Program-made: the position numbers and the translations under genes
Shown here: in pieces, positions 45,401 to 56,036 of the stretch
How positions within the stretch are numbered: the stretch's first letter is position 1
Layout of the letters: every line of letters starts with the position of its first letter
The notes under the pieces: generated by a model
Told to the model about the DNA's origin: nothing
Databases searched by the model: none
Seen by the model: only the letters and a program-made list of their open reading frames with translations
DNA from: Larkinella soli
GTDB taxonomy: Bacteria > Bacteroidota > Bacteroidia > Cytophagales > Spirosomataceae
Reading direction: 5' to 3'
Length of the DNA stretch: 64,000 nt
Assembly: GCF_003703975.1 (NCBI RefSeq)
Contig: NZ_QTJY01000011.1
Coordinates: 124,001-188,000 of the forward strand

Positions 45401-46084
45401 ATGGAACAGAATGAATTCAGTCAGCCCACCCCCCGCCGGGAGTTTCTGAGCACTCTCACCGGTGGTGCGGCCGCCCTCGGAACCGGCGCCTTTTTCTCTC
45501 CCCAACCGGCCACCGGGGCCGCGCCCGAAAGCCCGGATGCCTGGTTTGAAAATATTCGGGGAAAGCACAAAGTTGTTTTCGATGCCACCCAACCGCACGG
45601 GATGTTTCCGTTCGCCTGGCCGCGCGTTTTTCTGCTGACCAACGCGGCCACCGGAACCCCGGAGAAGGAGAACAGCGTGGTCGTCGTGCTGCGGCATGAC
45701 GCCATTCCGTATGCCTTCGAGGACCGTCTCTGGGCGAAGTATAAATTCGGTGAGGTGTTCAAGGCTGAAGATCCCGACTCCAAAGCGCCGTCCGTCCGGA
45801 ATCCGTTCTGGAAACCCAAACCGGGGGCGTTCAAGGTGCCGGGCTTCGGGGAGGTGGCGCTCGGGATCAACGAGCTTCAGGCCAGCGGGGTCATGTTCTG
45901 CGTCTGCGATGCGGCCATCACGGTCTACAGCGCCGCCGTCGCACAAGGCATGAACCTGAAGGCGGACGACGTCAAAAAAGACTGGATGTCCGGACTGATT
46001 CCGGGCGTTCAGGTGGTTCCGTCCGGGGTCTGGGCGCTCGGCCGGGCCCAGGAAAAAGGCTGCGCCTATATTTTTGCCGGCTGA
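45401..46084 (+). CDS. Tat-exported DsrE/DsrF-like protein
   Basis: The 227-residue protein has a Tat leader (TPRREFLSTLTGGAAALGTGAF). The mature part fits a DsrE-like fold: HKVVFDATQPHGMFPFAWPRVFLL, NSVVVVLRHDAIPYAFED, then GINELQASGVMFCVCDAAI with C167 and C169, and PSGVWALGRAQEKGCAYIFAG with C221. DsrE/TusD-like proteins carry persulfide sulfur on a cysteine. The gene lies 89 bases before the TSUP-TsdA fusion on the same strand. A periplasmic sulfur carrier working with it is a reasonable inference, not shown. Confidence 0.78.
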   Translation: MEQNEFSQPTPRREFLSTLTGGAAALGTGAFFSPQPATGAAPESPDAWFENIRGKHKVVFDATQPHGMFPFAWPRVFLLTNAATGTPEKENSVVVVLRHDAIPYAFEDRLWAKYKFGEVFKAEDPDSKAPSVRNPFWKPKPGAFKVPGFGEVALGINELQASGVMFCVCDAAITVYSAAVAQGMNLKADDVKKDWMSGLIPGVQVVPSGVWALGRAQEKGCAYIFAG

Positions 46085-46173
46085 TTCAGGCACCCTTCCG
46101 GCAGGCTGGTCACTGGTCCAGCCTGCTTCTCTTTGGTGTCATTGCCTTTCCTCTCTGTTCTACTTATTGGATT

Positions 46174-47889
46174 ATGGACATTCTGCAGGTTCTGGGTTTT
46201 CTCAGTTCCCTGCTGATCGGCATCAGCCTGGGACTGATCGGCGGGGGCGGCAGCATCCTGACGCTTCCCGCCCTGGTTTACCTGCTGGGGCTGAACCCGG
46301 TTACCTCCTCGGCCTATTCCCTCTTTGTGGTCGGGACCACCTCGCTGGTCGGCTCCGTTCATTACATCCGGACCGGCCGCGTCAGTTACCGGGTAGCCCT
46401 CTGGTTTTCGGTGCCTTCCTTCACGGCCGCCTTTCTCACCCGGCGGTATCTGGTGGAGGCCATTCCCGACCCCCTCCTCCGGTACGGCAACGGGTGGCTT
46501 TCGCGGGATATGGCCCTGATGGTGTTTTTTGCCCTGGTGATGCTGGGGGCCGCCCTGACGATGATTCAGAGCGGTCGGGAATCCCGGGTTCCGGACAGGG
46601 TCCGGTTCCGGGTCACGCACCTGCCGGTCGTCCTGATCGGGCTGCTGGTCGGGGCCGTGACGGGGCTGACCGGGGTCGGGGGCGGCTTTCTGATCATTCC
46701 GGTCCTGGTTCTCCTGGCCCGGCTGCCGATGAAAACCGCCGTCGGCACCTCCCTGCTCATCATCGCCCTGAAATCCCTGATCGGCTTCCTGGGCGATCTG
46801 CCCGCCACCCGCGTCAACTGGTTCTTTCTGCTTCCCTTTACGGCCACTTCCATCCTGGGAATTCTGGCAGGCACCTACTTTTCCCGCTTCGTTTCCGGCC
46901 AAAGCCTGTCGCGGGCCTTCGGCTGGTTTCTGGCCCTGCTGAGCCTGTTTATCCTGAGTCGGGAGACCCTGATTTCCACGGCCTTCGGGCAGCACCTTCC
47001 GGCGAACCGCCGGCCGGCTCCGGCACCGAAACCGCTCTGGAAAGCGCCGGATCTCCGGGAAGCCGACCTCCTGCCGGATGCCGGTCTGATCCGGTACGGC
47101 CGCGACCTCATCGTGAACACGGCCCGGTACCTGGGGCCATTGGGCACCATCGACCGGCTTTCCAACGGAATGAACTGCCAGAACTGTCACCTGGAAGCCG
47201 GCACCAAAGCCTGGGGCTATAATTTCGGGGCGGTTGCCTCGACCTACCCGAAATACCGGGAACGGTCCGGTACGAAGGAAACCATCGTCAAACGGGTCAG
47301 TGACTGCTTCGAAAGAAGTCTCAACGGCCGTGCGCCCGACAGTACCGGCCGGGAAATGCGTGCCCTCGTAGCCTACATCCGGTTTGTCGGCAGGGAGGTG
47401 CCGAAGGGAGTGAGTCCGGCCGGTGCCGGTGTCCGGGTGCCGCCCTATCTGGACCGGGCCGCCGACCCCGCCCGCGGGCAACGGATCTACCGAAGGAAGT
47501 GCGTTGCCTGCCACGGGCCGGACGGCCGGGGAGTTCCCGGACCGGACGGGGCCGGGTTTACGTTTCCTCCCCTCTGGGGACCGCACAGCTATAATACCGG
47601 TGCCGGGCTTTACCGGCTTTCCCGACTGGCCGGTTACCTCCAATCCAATATGCCGCTGGGAGCTACCTGGAATTCCCCCCAACTCACCTCCGGGGAAGCC
47701 TGGGACCTGGCGGCCTTCATCAATTCCGCTCCCCGACCGTCCAGACCCTTTCCGCAGGACTGGCCCGTCCGGCGCAGCAAGCCGGTCGATCATCCGGTCG
47801 GTCCCTATGCCGATCCCTTCTCCGAACGACAGCACAAATACGGGCCGTTCCAGCCCATCGAGGACTTCCGGAAGAAACAGGAAATCTGA
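46174..47889 (+). CDS. Fusion of TauE/SafE (TSUP) permease with diheme TsdA-type thiosulfate dehydrogenase
   Basis: The 571-residue protein has two parts. Residues about 1-275 are a TSUP/TauE-SafE permease with two internal repeats (SLGLIGGGGSILTLPALVYLLG and TGLTGVGGGFLIIPVLVLLA). Residues about 290-555 are a diheme cytochrome c like TsdA: DAGLIRYGRDLIVNTARYLG, heme site C335-x-x-C338-H339 in NGMNCQNCHLEAGT, C378 in VSDCFERSLNG (the cysteine heme ligand of TsdA), heme site C443-x-x-C446-H447 and M493 in SNMPLG as probable second ligand. TsdA oxidises thiosulfate to tetrathionate or runs the reverse. The fusion would put permease and enzyme in one chain, with the heme domain in the periplasm. 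Confidence 0.88.
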   Translation: MDILQVLGFLSSLLIGISLGLIGGGGSILTLPALVYLLGLNPVTSSAYSLFVVGTTSLVGSVHYIRTGRVSYRVALWFSVPSFTAAFLTRRYLVEAIPDPLLRYGNGWLSRDMALMVFFALVMLGAALTMIQSGRESRVPDRVRFRVTHLPVVLIGLLVGAVTGLTGVGGGFLIIPVLVLLARLPMKTAVGTSLLIIALKSLIGFLGDLPATRVNWFFLLPFTATSILGILAGTYFSRFVSGQSLSRAFGWFLALLSLFILSRETLISTAFGQHLPANRRPAPAPKPLWKAPDLREADLLPDAGLIRYGRDLIVNTARYLGPLGTIDRLSNGMNCQNCHLEAGTKAWGYNFGAVASTYPKYRERSGTKETIVKRVSDCFERSLNGRAPDSTGREMRALVAYIRFVGREVPKGVSPAGAGVRVPPYLDRAADPARGQRIYRRKCVACHGPDGRGVPGPDGAGFTFPPLWGPHSYNTGAGLYRLSRLAGYLQSNMPLGATWNSPQLTSGEAWDLAAFINSAPRPSRPFPQDWPVRRSKPVDHPVGPYADPFSERQHKYGPFQPIEDFRKKQEI

Positions 47890-48539: not shown

Positions 48540-50420
48540 TCAGTGGGGTTGATTGAACTGGTCGTTGAAGTTCCGGGTCTGGATTTCCTTTTCCTGAACG
48601 ATCAGTTCGTTCTCGTACGGCATATTGGATTCGGGCGTCTGCGAATAGGGCACATTCTGCGGAATGAAGTCCTCGCGGGCGCCCGGTTTGCTGTAATCAT
48701 ACGGCCAGCGGTATACGGCCGGAATCTCCCCCGGCCAGTTCCCGTGCCCCGGATGGACCGGCGCCGTCCACTCCAGCGTATTGGCGTTCCAGGGGTTTTG
48801 GGGGGATTGTTTTCCCCAGAACAGGCTGTGTATGAAATTATACAGGAAGATCATCTGCGCCCCGGCCGTCAGGAAGGCCGCAATGGAAATGAAGGCGTTC
48901 ATGTCCTGATACTTCTGGAAGGCGTCGAAGCTCGTGAAGGAATAATACCGTCTGGGAAAACCGGCGATGCCGAGGTAGTGCATCGGGAAAAAGACCAGAT
49001 AGACTCCCACGAACGTACACCAGAAGTGAATCTGCCCCAGCGTATTGTTCATCAGACGGCCGAACATCTTCGGAAACCACTGGTAGATGCCCGTCAGCAG
49101 GCCGAAGGCGGAGGCCGCCCCCATCACCAGGTGAAAGTGAGCTACCACGAAATAAGTGTCGTGCAGCGGAATATCCAGCGTGCTGTTGCCCAGAACGATG
49201 CCCGTCACCCCGCCCGAGATGAAAAAGGAAACCATCCCGATGGCGAAGAGCATCGCCGGGGTGAAGATGATGTTGCCCTGCCAGAGCGTGGTGATGTAAT
49301 TGAACGCCTTCACGGCCGACGGCACCGCAATGATCAGCGTCAGGAACATGAAGATCGACCCCAGGAAGGGGTTCATGCCGGAGACGAACATATGGTGGGC
49401 CCAAACGATGAAGGACAGAAAGGCGATCCCGATCATCGACACGATCATGGCCCGGTATCCGAAAATCGGCTTGCGGGCGTTGACCGAGATCACCTCGGAC
49501 GTAATGCCCAGCGCAGGCAGGATCACGATGTACACTTCCGGATGGCCCAGGAACCAGAACAGGTGCTGGAACAGAATCGGGCTGCCGCCGACATTCGGCA
49601 AAGCCTCGCCACCGATGTAGATTTCCGACAGGTAAAAGCTCGTTCCGAAATGGCGGTCGAAGATCAGCAGCAGTACCGCCGAAAACAGAACCGGGAAGGA
49701 AATAAGGCCGAGGACGGCCGTCAGGAAAAAGGCCCAGATGGTCAGGGGAAGTTTGCTGAAGGCCATGCCGCGCGTCCGGAGATTGATCACGGTGGTGATG
49801 TAATTGATGCCGCCCAGCAGCTGCGAAACGATGAACATCGCCATGCTGATCAGCCAGAGGGTCATGCCCTGCGCGGAACCCGAAACCGCCTGGGGCAGGG
49901 CGTTCAGGGGCGGGTACACGGTCCAGCCTCCCATCGGGGGCCCGGTTTCGATGAAGAGGGCAGTGAACATGATCAGGCTGGACACAAAGAAAAACCAGTA
50001 GGACAGCATATTCAGAAAACCGGAGGCCATGTCCCGCGCCCCGATCTGGAGCGGAATCAGGAAGTTGGAGAAGGTTCCGCTCAGGCCGGCCGTCAGCACG
50101 AAGAAAACCATGATGGTACCGTGCATGGTAACCAGCGCAAGGTAAAATTCGGGGTCGAGCGTTCCGTTGTCGGAAACCCAGTTGCCGAGAATGGGCCGCA
50201 GCCATTCCACTTTGGCGCCCTGAAATCCGAGCTGAATCCGGAACAGCAGAGAGAGCGCGATGCCGGTAACGGCCCAGAAGATGCCCGTCAGGAGGTACTG
50301 TTTTGCAATGGTTTTGTGATCTTCCGAGAAGACGTACTTTCGCCAGAACGACTGCGGTTCATGGTGTTCGTGTTCGGCCACCCCGGCGGTGGGGAGGGTG
50401 GAGTGTCCAGGTGTTGCCAT
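48540..50420 (-). CDS. ctaD: Cytochrome c oxidase subunit I
   Basis: From ATG 50418-50420 (MATPGHSTLPT) the protein has 626 residues and about 12-14 membrane helices. Heme-copper motifs are present: MHGTIMVFF (low-spin heme ligand), FWFLGHPEVYIVILP (Cu-B His and cross-linked Tyr), IVWAHHMFVSGM (Cu-B histidines), AVKAFNYITTLW (K-channel Lys) and DTYFVVAHFHLVMG (heme ligands). GARDMASGFLNMLSYW supplies D-channel residues. This is a type A oxidase core. Subunits II and III, normally adjacent in Bacteroidota, are not in the window, so it is an orphan copy or its partners are elsewhere. Confidence 0.95.
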   Translation of the reverse strand: MATPGHSTLPTAGVAEHEHHEPQSFWRKYVFSEDHKTIAKQYLLTGIFWAVTGIALSLLFRIQLGFQGAKVEWLRPILGNWVSDNGTLDPEFYLALVTMHGTIMVFFVLTAGLSGTFSNFLIPLQIGARDMASGFLNMLSYWFFFVSSLIMFTALFIETGPPMGGWTVYPPLNALPQAVSGSAQGMTLWLISMAMFIVSQLLGGINYITTVINLRTRGMAFSKLPLTIWAFFLTAVLGLISFPVLFSAVLLLIFDRHFGTSFYLSEIYIGGEALPNVGGSPILFQHLFWFLGHPEVYIVILPALGITSEVISVNARKPIFGYRAMIVSMIGIAFLSFIVWAHHMFVSGMNPFLGSIFMFLTLIIAVPSAVKAFNYITTLWQGNIIFTPAMLFAIGMVSFFISGGVTGIVLGNSTLDIPLHDTYFVVAHFHLVMGAASAFGLLTGIYQWFPKMFGRLMNNTLGQIHFWCTFVGVYLVFFPMHYLGIAGFPRRYYSFTSFDAFQKYQDMNAFISIAAFLTAGAQMIFLYNFIHSLFWGKQSPQNPWNANTLEWTAPVHPGHGNWPGEIPAVYRWPYDYSKPGAREDFIPQNVPYSQTPESNMPYENELIVQEKEIQTRNFNDQFNQPH

Positions 50421-50489
50421 ACGGAAAAAGGGGTTGCTTCCGCAGGCTAAACCGGCCGACTGAACGATCCGTAAAAAAATAATACCGAA

Positions 50490-50536
50490 AAAAGGCAACG
50501 GCCCCTTCAGGATAAACCAAAGGGCCGTTGCCTTTT
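50490..50536 (-). terminator. Terminator after the hypothetical gene at 50551-51168
   Basis: Arms AAAAGGCAACGGCCC (50490-50504) and its complement (50522-50536) form a 15-bp stem. On the minus strand it is followed by T residues, so it ends the gene at 50551-51168 before the oxidase gene. Confidence 0.85.
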
Positions 50537-50550
50537 CAAACCGGTCGCCG

Positions 50551-51168
50551 TCAGGCACCGACCAGAAAATCCGTCAGTTTTTCCCACTGCATTTTCTGGA
50601 AATAGGCCCAGCCGCCTTCGGCGATCAGCGTATTGACCACCGGCCGGTCGCCGGCTTCCGGCCCCTGGTTATTGATGAATTCGTTGCGGCCCAGTTCCAG
50701 CCCGAAGACGGTGTGGCCCCGCCGTTCGACCCGGAAGGTACTGCTGGCCTCCGGCCCGAAAAAGTGTTTAATCTCCTTCGGCCCCGGCTTCCCGTTCTCC
50801 TGCGGGTGCGGGCTCGGCTTCACCGTAAACTGGGCCTCGTTCTCGCCGGTCCGGATGTCGGTCACCTCGACCCAGTTCTCCGGGGTGGGTCCGGGCAGCC
50901 CGATCCGCACAAAATCACCGACTTCCAGCCCCCCGTCGGTCCGCGGGTTTCCATCGGGCCGGACGACCTCGAAGTCGGAGGAAATGCCCGGCAGATTCGA
51001 CCAGCGGTTCACGGCAAACAGCCTCTCCCGCGCCCGTTCGAAAGCCGTCCGGGCTGCCGTTTCGTCCGGGAAGGTTTTTTCGCTGGAAAACGTCTTGTCC
51101 TTCGACTCCTCGCCTTTGATCACTTTGGCCTCCTGCAAAATATCTTTGATCACTTTTCCGATTCCCAT
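50551..51168 (-). CDS. Conserved-looking hypothetical protein
   Basis: From ATG 51166-51168 (MGIGKVIKDILQEAK) the product has 205 residues with no leader or membrane helix. Core segments are FERARERLFAVNRWSNLPGIS, GLEVGDFVRIGLPGPTPENWVEVTD, EIKHFFGPEASSTFRVERRG and NTLIAEGGWAYFQKMQWEKL. The strand pattern with a central FGLELGRNEFINNQGP could be a helix-grip (SRPBCC-like) fold, but I do not recognise the family. It has its own terminator. Confidence 0.65.
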   Translation of the reverse strand: MGIGKVIKDILQEAKVIKGEESKDKTFSSEKTFPDETAARTAFERARERLFAVNRWSNLPGISSDFEVVRPDGNPRTDGGLEVGDFVRIGLPGPTPENWVEVTDIRTGENEAQFTVKPSPHPQENGKPGPKEIKHFFGPEASSTFRVERRGHTVFGLELGRNEFINNQGPEAGDRPVVNTLIAEGGWAYFQKMQWEKLTDFLVGA

Positions 51169-54740: not shown

Positions 54741-56036
54741 TTATTTCAAAGCGCCGGTGGGTTTCAGGTAATTGCTGACCGTCCACTGGCCCACTTTGGC
54801 ACCGAGGTCCAGGCCGGCGTTGCAGGAGAACCGGAAGTGGATGCCCACCATCACCCGGGAGTCGGCGTTTTCCTTTGCGGCCTGGCTGAAGCTGGTGAAG
54901 CTCCGTTTCGGGTTGGACGGGTCGGCCGTGTTCGAGGTCATCGTGAAGCTGACGTTGTCGCCCAGCAACTGAGCCATGACGACGGCTGCGGCATTGCCGA
55001 GGGTGCTGTGCGTGGACGGATAGTCCTGCACCGGCGGAGTCGGCATCAGCGGTTCCCACTGGGGGTCGGCGGCCGTGGCGGGGTTGCCGTCGGTTTCAGC
55101 GGCCTGGATGGCGGTTTTCGGACGCCAGAAGTTGTAATGGAACTTGGAATCCCAGCCGGCCGTGTAGGAATCCGCCATGGCGATGTTGACCAGCGCGAAC
55201 AGCCGGGCGGTGCTGAGCAGGTCGAGCTTGCGGTCGGCGGCTACGACGCGGGCCACCCGGTTCCAGCCGATTTCGGAGAATTCATACCAGAATTTGCCGT
55301 AGTTGGTCTGGTCCGTCGAGCGGGTTTTGCTTTTGAGGTCGCCCAGCTGCTTCACCTCGTTGAACGCATCGGTATATTCCCTGCTGTTCAGCGCCGGTTG
55401 CGGGCCCACCCGGAACTGATCCGGTTTGCTCAGGCCGAACGGTTTCATCTGTTTCCAGAACGGGGCGAACAGGAAAGGCATCGGAGCGACGGCCTGATAC
55501 TCTCCCGGCCGGCTGGAAGGCGTCACGGGAGCGATCGGGTCCAGAAGGGCGCCGTCGTCTTTCCGCAGGTTCAGAATGGCCGTACCGGCTTCCTTCCCGA
55601 GCGTCACCCCCCGGTCGAACCGGCTGCCCGTCTGAATACCGGCCAGTGAGCGGGTCAGGGCCGAGTCCAGTTTCGCTTTCTTATCCGGAAACGATACCAC
55701 CAGCACCTCGTGGGCCGCCGTGGCCGCGGCTACGATCGGGTCGGCATCGGTATCCCGGCGTTTGAGGGCGTAGGTCTGGTAACTCCCGGTGATTCCGTTC
55801 AGGGCGTCGTGCATGGCCAGGTGAACCATGGCGTTGATCCGCGAAGCCAGGAGCGAGTGCTGGTAGGTGACGCCCCCCATGGCTTCAAACGCCATGACGT
55901 TCCAGTTCAGAATGACTTCGTTCGAATAGCCGGCCAGTTTCGGCTGTTTTTCACCGACCCCGACCCCGTCGGAGCGGTTACAGGCGAGCAGCATCAACAG
56001 ACTGAGAATGAGCGAACAAAGGGTTAACTTTTTCAT
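54741..56036 (-). CDS. Vanadium-dependent haloperoxidase-like lipoprotein (PAP2 superfamily)
   Basis: The 431-residue protein has a lipobox (LSLLMLLAC, C19). Active-site motifs of the vanadium haloperoxidase/PAP2 group are visible: KFHYNFWRPKTAI (Lys, Arg), VQDYPSTHSTLGNAAA (Ser/His) and SRVMVGIHFRFSCNAGLDLG (Arg, His). The protein is therefore probably periplasmic and anchored in a membrane. Relatives bind vanadate or phosphate; whether it is a haloperoxidase or phosphatase is not clear. It has its own terminator. Confidence 0.88.
   Translation of the reverse strand: MKKLTLCSLILSLLMLLACNRSDGVGVGEKQPKLAGYSNEVILNWNVMAFEAMGGVTYQHSLLASRINAMVHLAMHDALNGITGSYQTYALKRRDTDADPIVAAATAAHEVLVVSFPDKKAKLDSALTRSLAGIQTGSRFDRGVTLGKEAGTAILNLRKDDGALLDPIAPVTPSSRPGEYQAVAPMPFLFAPFWKQMKPFGLSKPDQFRVGPQPALNSREYTDAFNEVKQLGDLKSKTRSTDQTNYGKFWYEFSEIGWNRVARVVAADRKLDLLSTARLFALVNIAMADSYTAGWDSKFHYNFWRPKTAIQAAETDGNPATAADPQWEPLMPTPPVQDYPSTHSTLGNAAAVVMAQLLGDNVSFTMTSNTADPSNPKRSFTSFSQAAKENADSRVMVGIHFRFSCNAGLDLGAKVGQWTVSNYLKPTGALK

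Follow-up and report, generated by a model that had tools for sequence, protein, structure and literature searches.

We found that, within the 64,000-nucleotide stretch of Larkinella soli DNA analysed here (the window), one gene encodes a TSUP (TauE/SafE) permease joined to a TsdA-type diheme cytochrome c (Table 1). The fused protein is real, conserved and apparently rare, and its function we infer. On balance, we lean towards reading it as a thiosulfate dehydrogenase bound to the membrane: its TsdA, which probably oxidises exported thiosulfate, would have a TSUP anion transporter as neighbour and anchor at once.

Table 1. Features of the fused gene, of its upstream neighbour and of short TSUP-like frames in related loci. 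Positions are those of the window unless a locus is named.
Feature	Position	Strand	Evidence
Upstream gene, Tat-type signal, weak ThioSDhTetH similarity	45401..46084	+	Same pair in L. humicola; adjoins TSUP or TsdA in some relatives
Fused gene, TSUP permease + TsdA-type diheme cytochrome c	46174..47889	+	571 aa; open frame, Pfam, second species
TSUP (TauE/SafE) domain, residues 1-267	46174..46974	+	Pfam PF01925, AlphaFold helices, BacA in Foldseek list, charge tallies
Last transmembrane helix, residues 242-267 (predicted)	46897..46974	+	AlphaFold model; positive loop before helix
Linker, residues 268-288	46975..47037	+	pLDDT <50; 1/21 residues identical between the two fusions
TsdA domain, residues 289-571	47038..47886	+	4wq7 TMt 0.89; phmmer E 4e-46 to 4wqc
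Heme 1 site CQNCH, residues 335-339	47176..47190	+	C, C, H in 61/61 relatives
R364, counterpart of AvTsdA Arg109	47263..47265	+	Alignment with A. vinosum chains; PMC4423706
R374, counterpart of AvTsdA Arg119	47293..47295	+	Alignment with A. vinosum chains; PMC4423706
C378, heme-1 cysteine ligand	47305..47307	+	Equals AvTsdA Cys96 (mature) / Cys123 (precursor); 61/61 relatives
S382, counterpart of AvTsdA Ser127	47317..47319	+	Alignment with A. vinosum chains; PMC4423706
Heme 2 site CVACH, residues 443-447	47500..47514	+	C, C, H in 61/61 relatives
Heme-2 distal pocket Q490-S-N492-M493	47641..47652	+	Alignment of relatives; comparison with C. jejuni and A. vinosum TsdA
Frames of 122-126 aa (perhaps half-size TSUP genes)	L075 7411-7788; L108 923-1300; L169 2260-2637 (-); L170 2536-2901 (-); L171 1221-1586		

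The open frame runs through 571 amino acids without an internal stop. Pfam placed PF01925 (TauE) at residues 9-258 (E 7e-40; profile positions 2-235 of 237, i.e. full-length), PF21342 (SoxA-TsdA cytochrome) at residues 330-409 (E 9e-9) and Cytochrome_CBB3 at residues 430-516 (E 2e-13). Together with both CxxCH sites, C378 and M493, these matches bear out the sequence-only reading, which had seen a permease and a TsdA-type cytochrome in one open frame. Larkinella humicola (P0002, G002) encodes the same TSUP and TsdA layout, also in 571 aa and 61% identical to the window's fusion. The TSUP parts of the two genes share 0.65/0.74/0.44 identity at codon positions 1/2/3, against 0.76/0.79/0.40 for the TsdA parts and 0.33/0.33/0.29 for the linkers; on these values both halves look constrained and the linker looks unconstrained. 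The separate genes lie head to tail elsewhere, with stop-to-stop frames 4 bases apart in four loci, which speaks for an assembly or frameshift artefact that merged two genes. The sequence-only reading had named this danger itself, and we consider its probability negligible: the L. humicola assembly holds an in-frame fusion of equal length and both halves are constrained. The fused second species already refutes the artefact, short of the same error in both assemblies. Opposite the fused gene we observed an antisense open frame of 589 aa (46066-47835, minus strand), probably a by-product of the high GC at third codon positions (0.78).

To describe the distribution of the fusion, we considered genomes at four levels as well as plasmids. 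Within the genus Larkinella, 2 of 9 genomes carry it (the window's and that of L. humicola). L. humicola was the only fused case among the best 80 of 565 confirmed stretches in the species-genome scan, from which the window's own genome was possibly left out. Among the matches listed by the family scan (222 genomes, at most 6 candidates scored per genome), only those of the window and of L. humicola were fused; among those listed by the phylum scan (395 genomes, at most 3 candidates per genome, the L. humicola genome lying outside the sample), only the window's was. None of the 101 plasmid records with a match has a single place that covers 80% of the query. No third fusion appeared in the 80 loci or among the listed matches of the species, family, phylum and plasmid scans. 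Long open frames at TsdA in the family scan (396-695 aa) were candidates for further fusions, but in none of the 12 places read (L096, L108, L121, L122 and L169-L176) do TSUP and TsdA share a frame; these proved to be either extensions on the upstream side or distinct genes with intervening stop codons. C. metallidurans gave one tblastn piece across 64% of the query, but this covers two adjacent genes. We found no paper on a TSUP-TsdA fusion in the open-licence literature, and none is described in the excerpts of PMC11582611, PMC6548844, PMC12423496 and PMC7608252. The sequence-only reading had named long-known homologues with another assigned function as evidence that would tell against it; that literature yielded none, and L. 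humicola is the one further species in which the fusion was seen.

We next consider the TsdA half. Its best solved relatives were A. vinosum TsdA chains (4wqc, E 4e-46 over residues 296-525, phmmer), followed by the TsdBA chain 5lo9 (E 4e-34), and the AlphaFold model compared with 4wq7 (TMt 0.89, rmsd 2.1) has the TsdA fold. Judged from the alignments, the TsdA residue set is complete: both CxxCH sites, C378, R364, R374 and S382 are present, as is M493, the heme 2 methionine ligand. In AvTsdA, Arg109, Arg119 and Ser127 bind thiosulfate (PMC4423706, excerpt). The Cys, Cys and His of the CxxCH sites, C378 and M493 were identical in all 61 unfused relatives compared. At the heme-2 pocket, 60 of the 61 relatives have Asn at the N492 position, and Q490 takes the place of a lysine retained in 59 of the 61 and in L. 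humicola. The pocket of A. vinosum TsdA is Lys/Met, whereas that of the window's fusion is Asn/Met, as in C. jejuni TsdA.

In the AlphaFold model (95-row alignment; mean pLDDT 90, pTM 0.68), the TSUP part forms two repeats of a helix plus half-helix pair and three long helices. In a fold search of the PDB (Foldseek), BacA ranked directly behind the TsdA chains (E 0.013, TMt 0.57, rmsd 6.3), and we took the range of this match to be the TSUP part of the model. The TSUP profile had zero matches among PDB sequences, and a viral fold library gave nothing below E 0.001. BacA is built of six transmembrane helices and two re-entrant pairs, and the positive-inside rule assigns both of its ends to the periplasm (PMC5852022, excerpt). 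With the chains in a BacA-like arrangement, Lys plus Arg averaged 11.9 on four inner loops and 1.2 on the outer ones, the inner side being higher in 35/35 rows (12 vs 2 for the window alone), in a tally whose loops were picked after the model was seen and which omits helix ends. With all residues 1-275 given a side, the averages were 12.1 inner and 5.7 outer, the inner side being higher in 34/35 rows (12 vs 7 for the window alone). This fuller tally is less lopsided than the loop tally, which counts against the reading we favour. A plain eight-helix alternation did not separate the charges (6.9 vs 6.2 on loops, 9.1 vs 8.7 on all residues), and the BacA-like arrangement is preferred for that reason.

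From the charges and the BacA-like fold we predict a periplasmic location for both ends of the chain and for the hemes. The periplasm is where c-type hemes are attached. The sequence-only reading had assumed a periplasmic heme domain and had named cytoplasmic hemes as a result that would contradict it; the prediction (charges in 34-35 of 35 rows, BacA-like model) agrees with the former and gives no sign of the latter. The loop before the last TSUP helix holds a mean of 3.7 Lys plus Arg, and the unfused TsdA relatives that were read have an N-terminal hydrophobic segment of their own. Our best reading is that the last TSUP helix (residues 242-267) replaces this N-terminal anchor.

We assessed the integrity of the fused TSUPs against unfused ones, and this comparison bears on an alternative that we think unlikely, namely that the TSUP half no longer transports and is merely an oversized membrane anchor for TsdA. 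The window keeps 72/82 near-invariant TSUP positions and L. humicola 69/82 (88% and 84%), compared with at least 77 of their 82-92 in 32 of the 33 other rows (leave-one-out; the exception is L006, 72/86). This lower count favours the anchor and, as far as alignment can tell, counts against the reading we favour, but by fraction some unfused TSUPs are as low (L090 79/92, L006 72/86). Similarly, the conserved G204 is lost in L. humicola and present in the window, but the glycine motifs G20, G23-G26, G164, G167 and G169-G171 are kept in both fusions. The end branches of the fused TSUPs are long (0.78 and 0.93, vs 0.08 for Spirosoma L008), but that of the unfused Larkinella TSUP L086 is equally so (0.77). 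The anchor is further favoured by a second TSUP in the same genome and by the state of the TSUPs next to the same upstream gene, which in some Spirosoma are disrupted or absent; the constraint on codon positions 1 and 2 across the TSUP domain opposes it. We read the fused TSUP as a probably working but changed transporter.

The linker is flexible in the model, with pLDDT below 50 at residues 271-280, and 1 of its 21 residues is identical between the window and L. humicola. Because the linker is unconserved, closeness is likelier than rigid coupling to be the benefit of the fusion. The sequence-only reading had suggested that transport is coupled to electron transfer, or that the protein is a sensor-like redox transporter; neither suggestion has gained support so far, and the flexible, unconserved linker favours a tether. 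A redox-gated transporter or sensor, whose permease would be controlled by the heme state or a cysteine thiosulfonate, seems to us very improbable. The two functions are physically joined, and some His/Cys-heme proteins have been suggested as redox sensors (PMC6879331, excerpt), but in addition to the nature of the linker, the catalytic residues are all retained and the neighbouring proteins scanned have no signalling domain.

We also assessed the surroundings of unfused TsdA genes. A TSUP of at least 100 bits was present at 37 of 80 loci: fused at 1, no more than 200 bases upstream of TsdA at 7, further upstream at 27 and downstream at 2. The two genes are on the same strand in 36/36 unfused cases. 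The other 43 loci have no TSUP of 100 bits in the surrounding DNA examined, some through a contig end, and this counts against the reading we favour. In C. metallidurans CH34, a TSUP (27% identical) ends ~48 bases ahead of TsdA (36% identical). The neighbourhood in many Bacteroidota loci and one betaproteobacterium supports the functional link between the halves that the sequence-only reading had proposed. Frames from the 80 loci and the window region (81 sources) were clustered, with partner names taken from one representative each. The island partners were two YeeE-like pieces (56 and 55 of 81 sources), an MBL-rhodanese (52/81), a small DsrE protein (38/81), a SoxB-like protein (36/81), SQR (14/81) and a Crp-type regulator (12/81). 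These island genes of the relatives point to sulfur oxidation, and Bacteroidetes are among the carriers of both tsdA and soxB (PMC7608252, excerpt). The islands in 47/81 sources also hold a conserved protein of ~470 aa, whose representative (L027 3062-4480) had zero Pfam or NCBIfam matches.

At another place, the window's genome encodes a further TSUP, next to MBL-rhodanese and YeeE genes. Because the genome retains this TSUP there, the fusion is not a substitute for the permease of the usual sulfur set. Searches of the same genome found no second TsdA. The fused gene lies outside its genome's sulfur gene set, and a SoxB query in the genus Larkinella gave only 27-30% identical matches over part of the protein; both observations count against the reading we favour.

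In trees, the fused TSUP halves were sisters (99/94), as were the fused TsdA halves (98/92), and Spirosoma proteins were among the nearest kin of both. This pattern fits one fusion of two genes already working together. Upon addition of two further Spirosoma TSUPs, the fused TSUPs were not sisters in the best tree, and their monophyly was neither shown nor rejected (p-AU 0.285). The unfused Spirosoma TSUPs were considered as decayed fusions, and zero TsdA remnant was found in the adjoining DNA examined. Some Spirosoma-type TsdA genes have directly upstream a frame of 122-126 aa with weak TSUP similarity (26-28 bits; Table 1), perhaps a half-size TSUP gene.

The gene ahead of the fusion in both fused species was found in 7 of 222 family genomes, and the plasmids held no match to its protein. 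Cysteines C167, C169 and C221 are identical in 9/9 members of this family. The ThioSDhTetH family (NCBIfam NF052225) was matched at E ≤0.01 by 8 of the 9, the window's protein scoring 28 bits (E 1e-6), below the 300-bit cut-off. The DsrE profile was unmatched by the window's protein and weakly matched (E 0.059) by 1 of 3 relatives scanned. The model of the protein was poor (pLDDT 67), and a fold search with it gave no meaningful match. By analogy, we guess at a role like that of DsrE3A of Metallosphaera cuprina, on which a Cys-S-thiosulfonate is formed from tetrathionate (PMC4175335, excerpt).

In the Spirosoma-group genomes L161 and L162, the upstream gene also stands ahead of an unfused TSUP that groups with the fused ones (97/93), and in L029 and L061 it stands ahead of TsdA. 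With the fused loci, every pairwise combination of secreted cysteine protein, TSUP and TsdA thus occurs. The TSUP that follows the upstream gene is split between two frames in L165 (2031-3031) and is a fragment in L164 (1293-1607), the upstream gene staying open; in L163 no TSUP follows it. These broken or absent TSUPs count against the reading we favour.

Between the upstream gene and the fusion we observed a terminator-like hairpin (46100-46127, plus strand); the promoter/terminator scan gave 7 sites vs 4.0 expected (sd 2.0), a weak excess. A cytochrome c oxidase subunit I gene (48540-50558, minus strand) is convergent with the fused gene, ~0.65 kb off. Plasmid pSLIN02 of Spirosoma linguale carries a cytochrome-c oxidase gene as well, three genes ahead of its TsdA; because both the window and this plasmid have one, an oxidase near TsdA may recur. 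Elsewhere in the window, 54741-56036 (minus strand) encodes a PAP2-superfamily protein with weak vanadium chloroperoxidase matches.

Under the reading we favour, the chain would begin and end in the periplasm with a transporter of ten membrane elements, and the loose linker would suspend the diheme enzyme at the outer opening of this transporter. In the cytoplasm, persulfide oxidation and rhodanese activity would yield thiosulfate (or sulfite, its precursor), which would leave through the TSUP half. TsdA would join two thiosulfates into tetrathionate via a Cys378 thiosulfonate, and the two electrons would pass from heme 1 to heme 2, then to cytochrome c and a terminal oxidase. The transporter's substrate, the direction of transport and the running of TsdA as an oxidase are what we infer here. 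TauE-family sulfite export beside sulfur oxidation is one current model (PMC12423496 and PMC11582611, excerpts). A stricter version is possible but doubtful as a whole: the TSUP half would export thiosulfate and the tethered TsdA would oxidise it to tetrathionate, a one-way export that feeds respiration, and the upstream Tat-exported cysteine protein would take thiosulfonate groups.

The TsdA half could also act as a tetrathionate reductase, with the transporter importing the resulting thiosulfate (or tetrathionate), which we consider quite improbable. Some TSUP members take up sulfur compounds, and we count this for import. YeeE is likewise a thiosulfate importer (PMC11073785, excerpt), and TsdA enzymes operate both ways (PMC5146829, excerpt). 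The Asn/Met pocket of heme 2 resembles that of the reduction-biased C. jejuni TsdA, but Asn alone does not set the direction: A. vinosum K208N retains the residual tetrathionate reductase activity of the wild type. Whether the pocket holds Lys or Asn, that residue alone does not decide the direction (PMC6879331, excerpt). Q490 falls at the position of C. jejuni K252, where K252G made the enzyme more active and biased it towards oxidation (PMC5146829, excerpt), which argues against a reductase; but L. humicola keeps the lysine. The relatives' islands, with their sulfur-oxidation genes SQR, MBL-rhodanese and SoxB-like, also oppose this alternative.

TSUP and TsdA in one chain is a new variation on the known architecture of each. 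To our knowledge, the TsdA enzymes known so far are periplasmic and lack a transporter domain, and we know of no substrates for most TSUP (DUF81) transporters. The fusion is a rare natural hint at a transporter's cargo, its partners being separate neighbouring genes in relatives. Together with the pairing of the unfused genes in two phyla, it indicates thiosulfate, sulfite or tetrathionate for this TSUP subgroup, and a single gene suffices to put this to a direct test. It also suggests a reason for TsdA to be at the membrane, where it would meet its substrate as this leaves the cell. If export and oxidation are indeed joined in this way, the fusion reveals what a whole class of orphan TSUP transporters carries.

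Among known systems, the TsdA-SoxB-Sdo pathway of Erythrobacter flavus 21-3 resembles the relatives' islands, which likewise hold TsdA, SoxB-like and MBL-rhodanese genes; it differs in that a good SoxB match is absent from the window's genus, and the excerpts of PMC7608252 describe no permease fusion. BacA/UppP shares the predicted membrane fold, with two inverted repeats and ends assigned to the periplasm, but it is a lipid pyrophosphatase and the Foldseek E is only 0.013. The TauE/SafE sulfite exporters (TSUP, DUF81) have the PF01925 domain that the fusion matches as a whole, and they have no cytochrome domain. Like TsdA of A. vinosum (4wq7) and C. jejuni, the fusion has a diheme fold, a Cys-ligated heme 1, the thiosulfate-site Arg/Arg/Ser and a heme-2 Met, whereas the solved chains are of 252-253 residues and the fusion is joined to a ten-element membrane transporter. 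In TsdBA of Marichromatium purpuratum (5lo9), TsdA also occupies the C-terminal half of a longer chain (match 260-491 of 526), the other half of which we take to be another cytochrome (TsdB), not a permease. The unfused TSUP-TsdA pairs of Bacteroidota and C. metallidurans CH34 consist of the same two proteins in the same order and on the same strand as in the fusion, but as separate genes, and the Bacteroidota unfused TsdAs that were read, unlike the fusion, have their own N-terminal hydrophobic segment.
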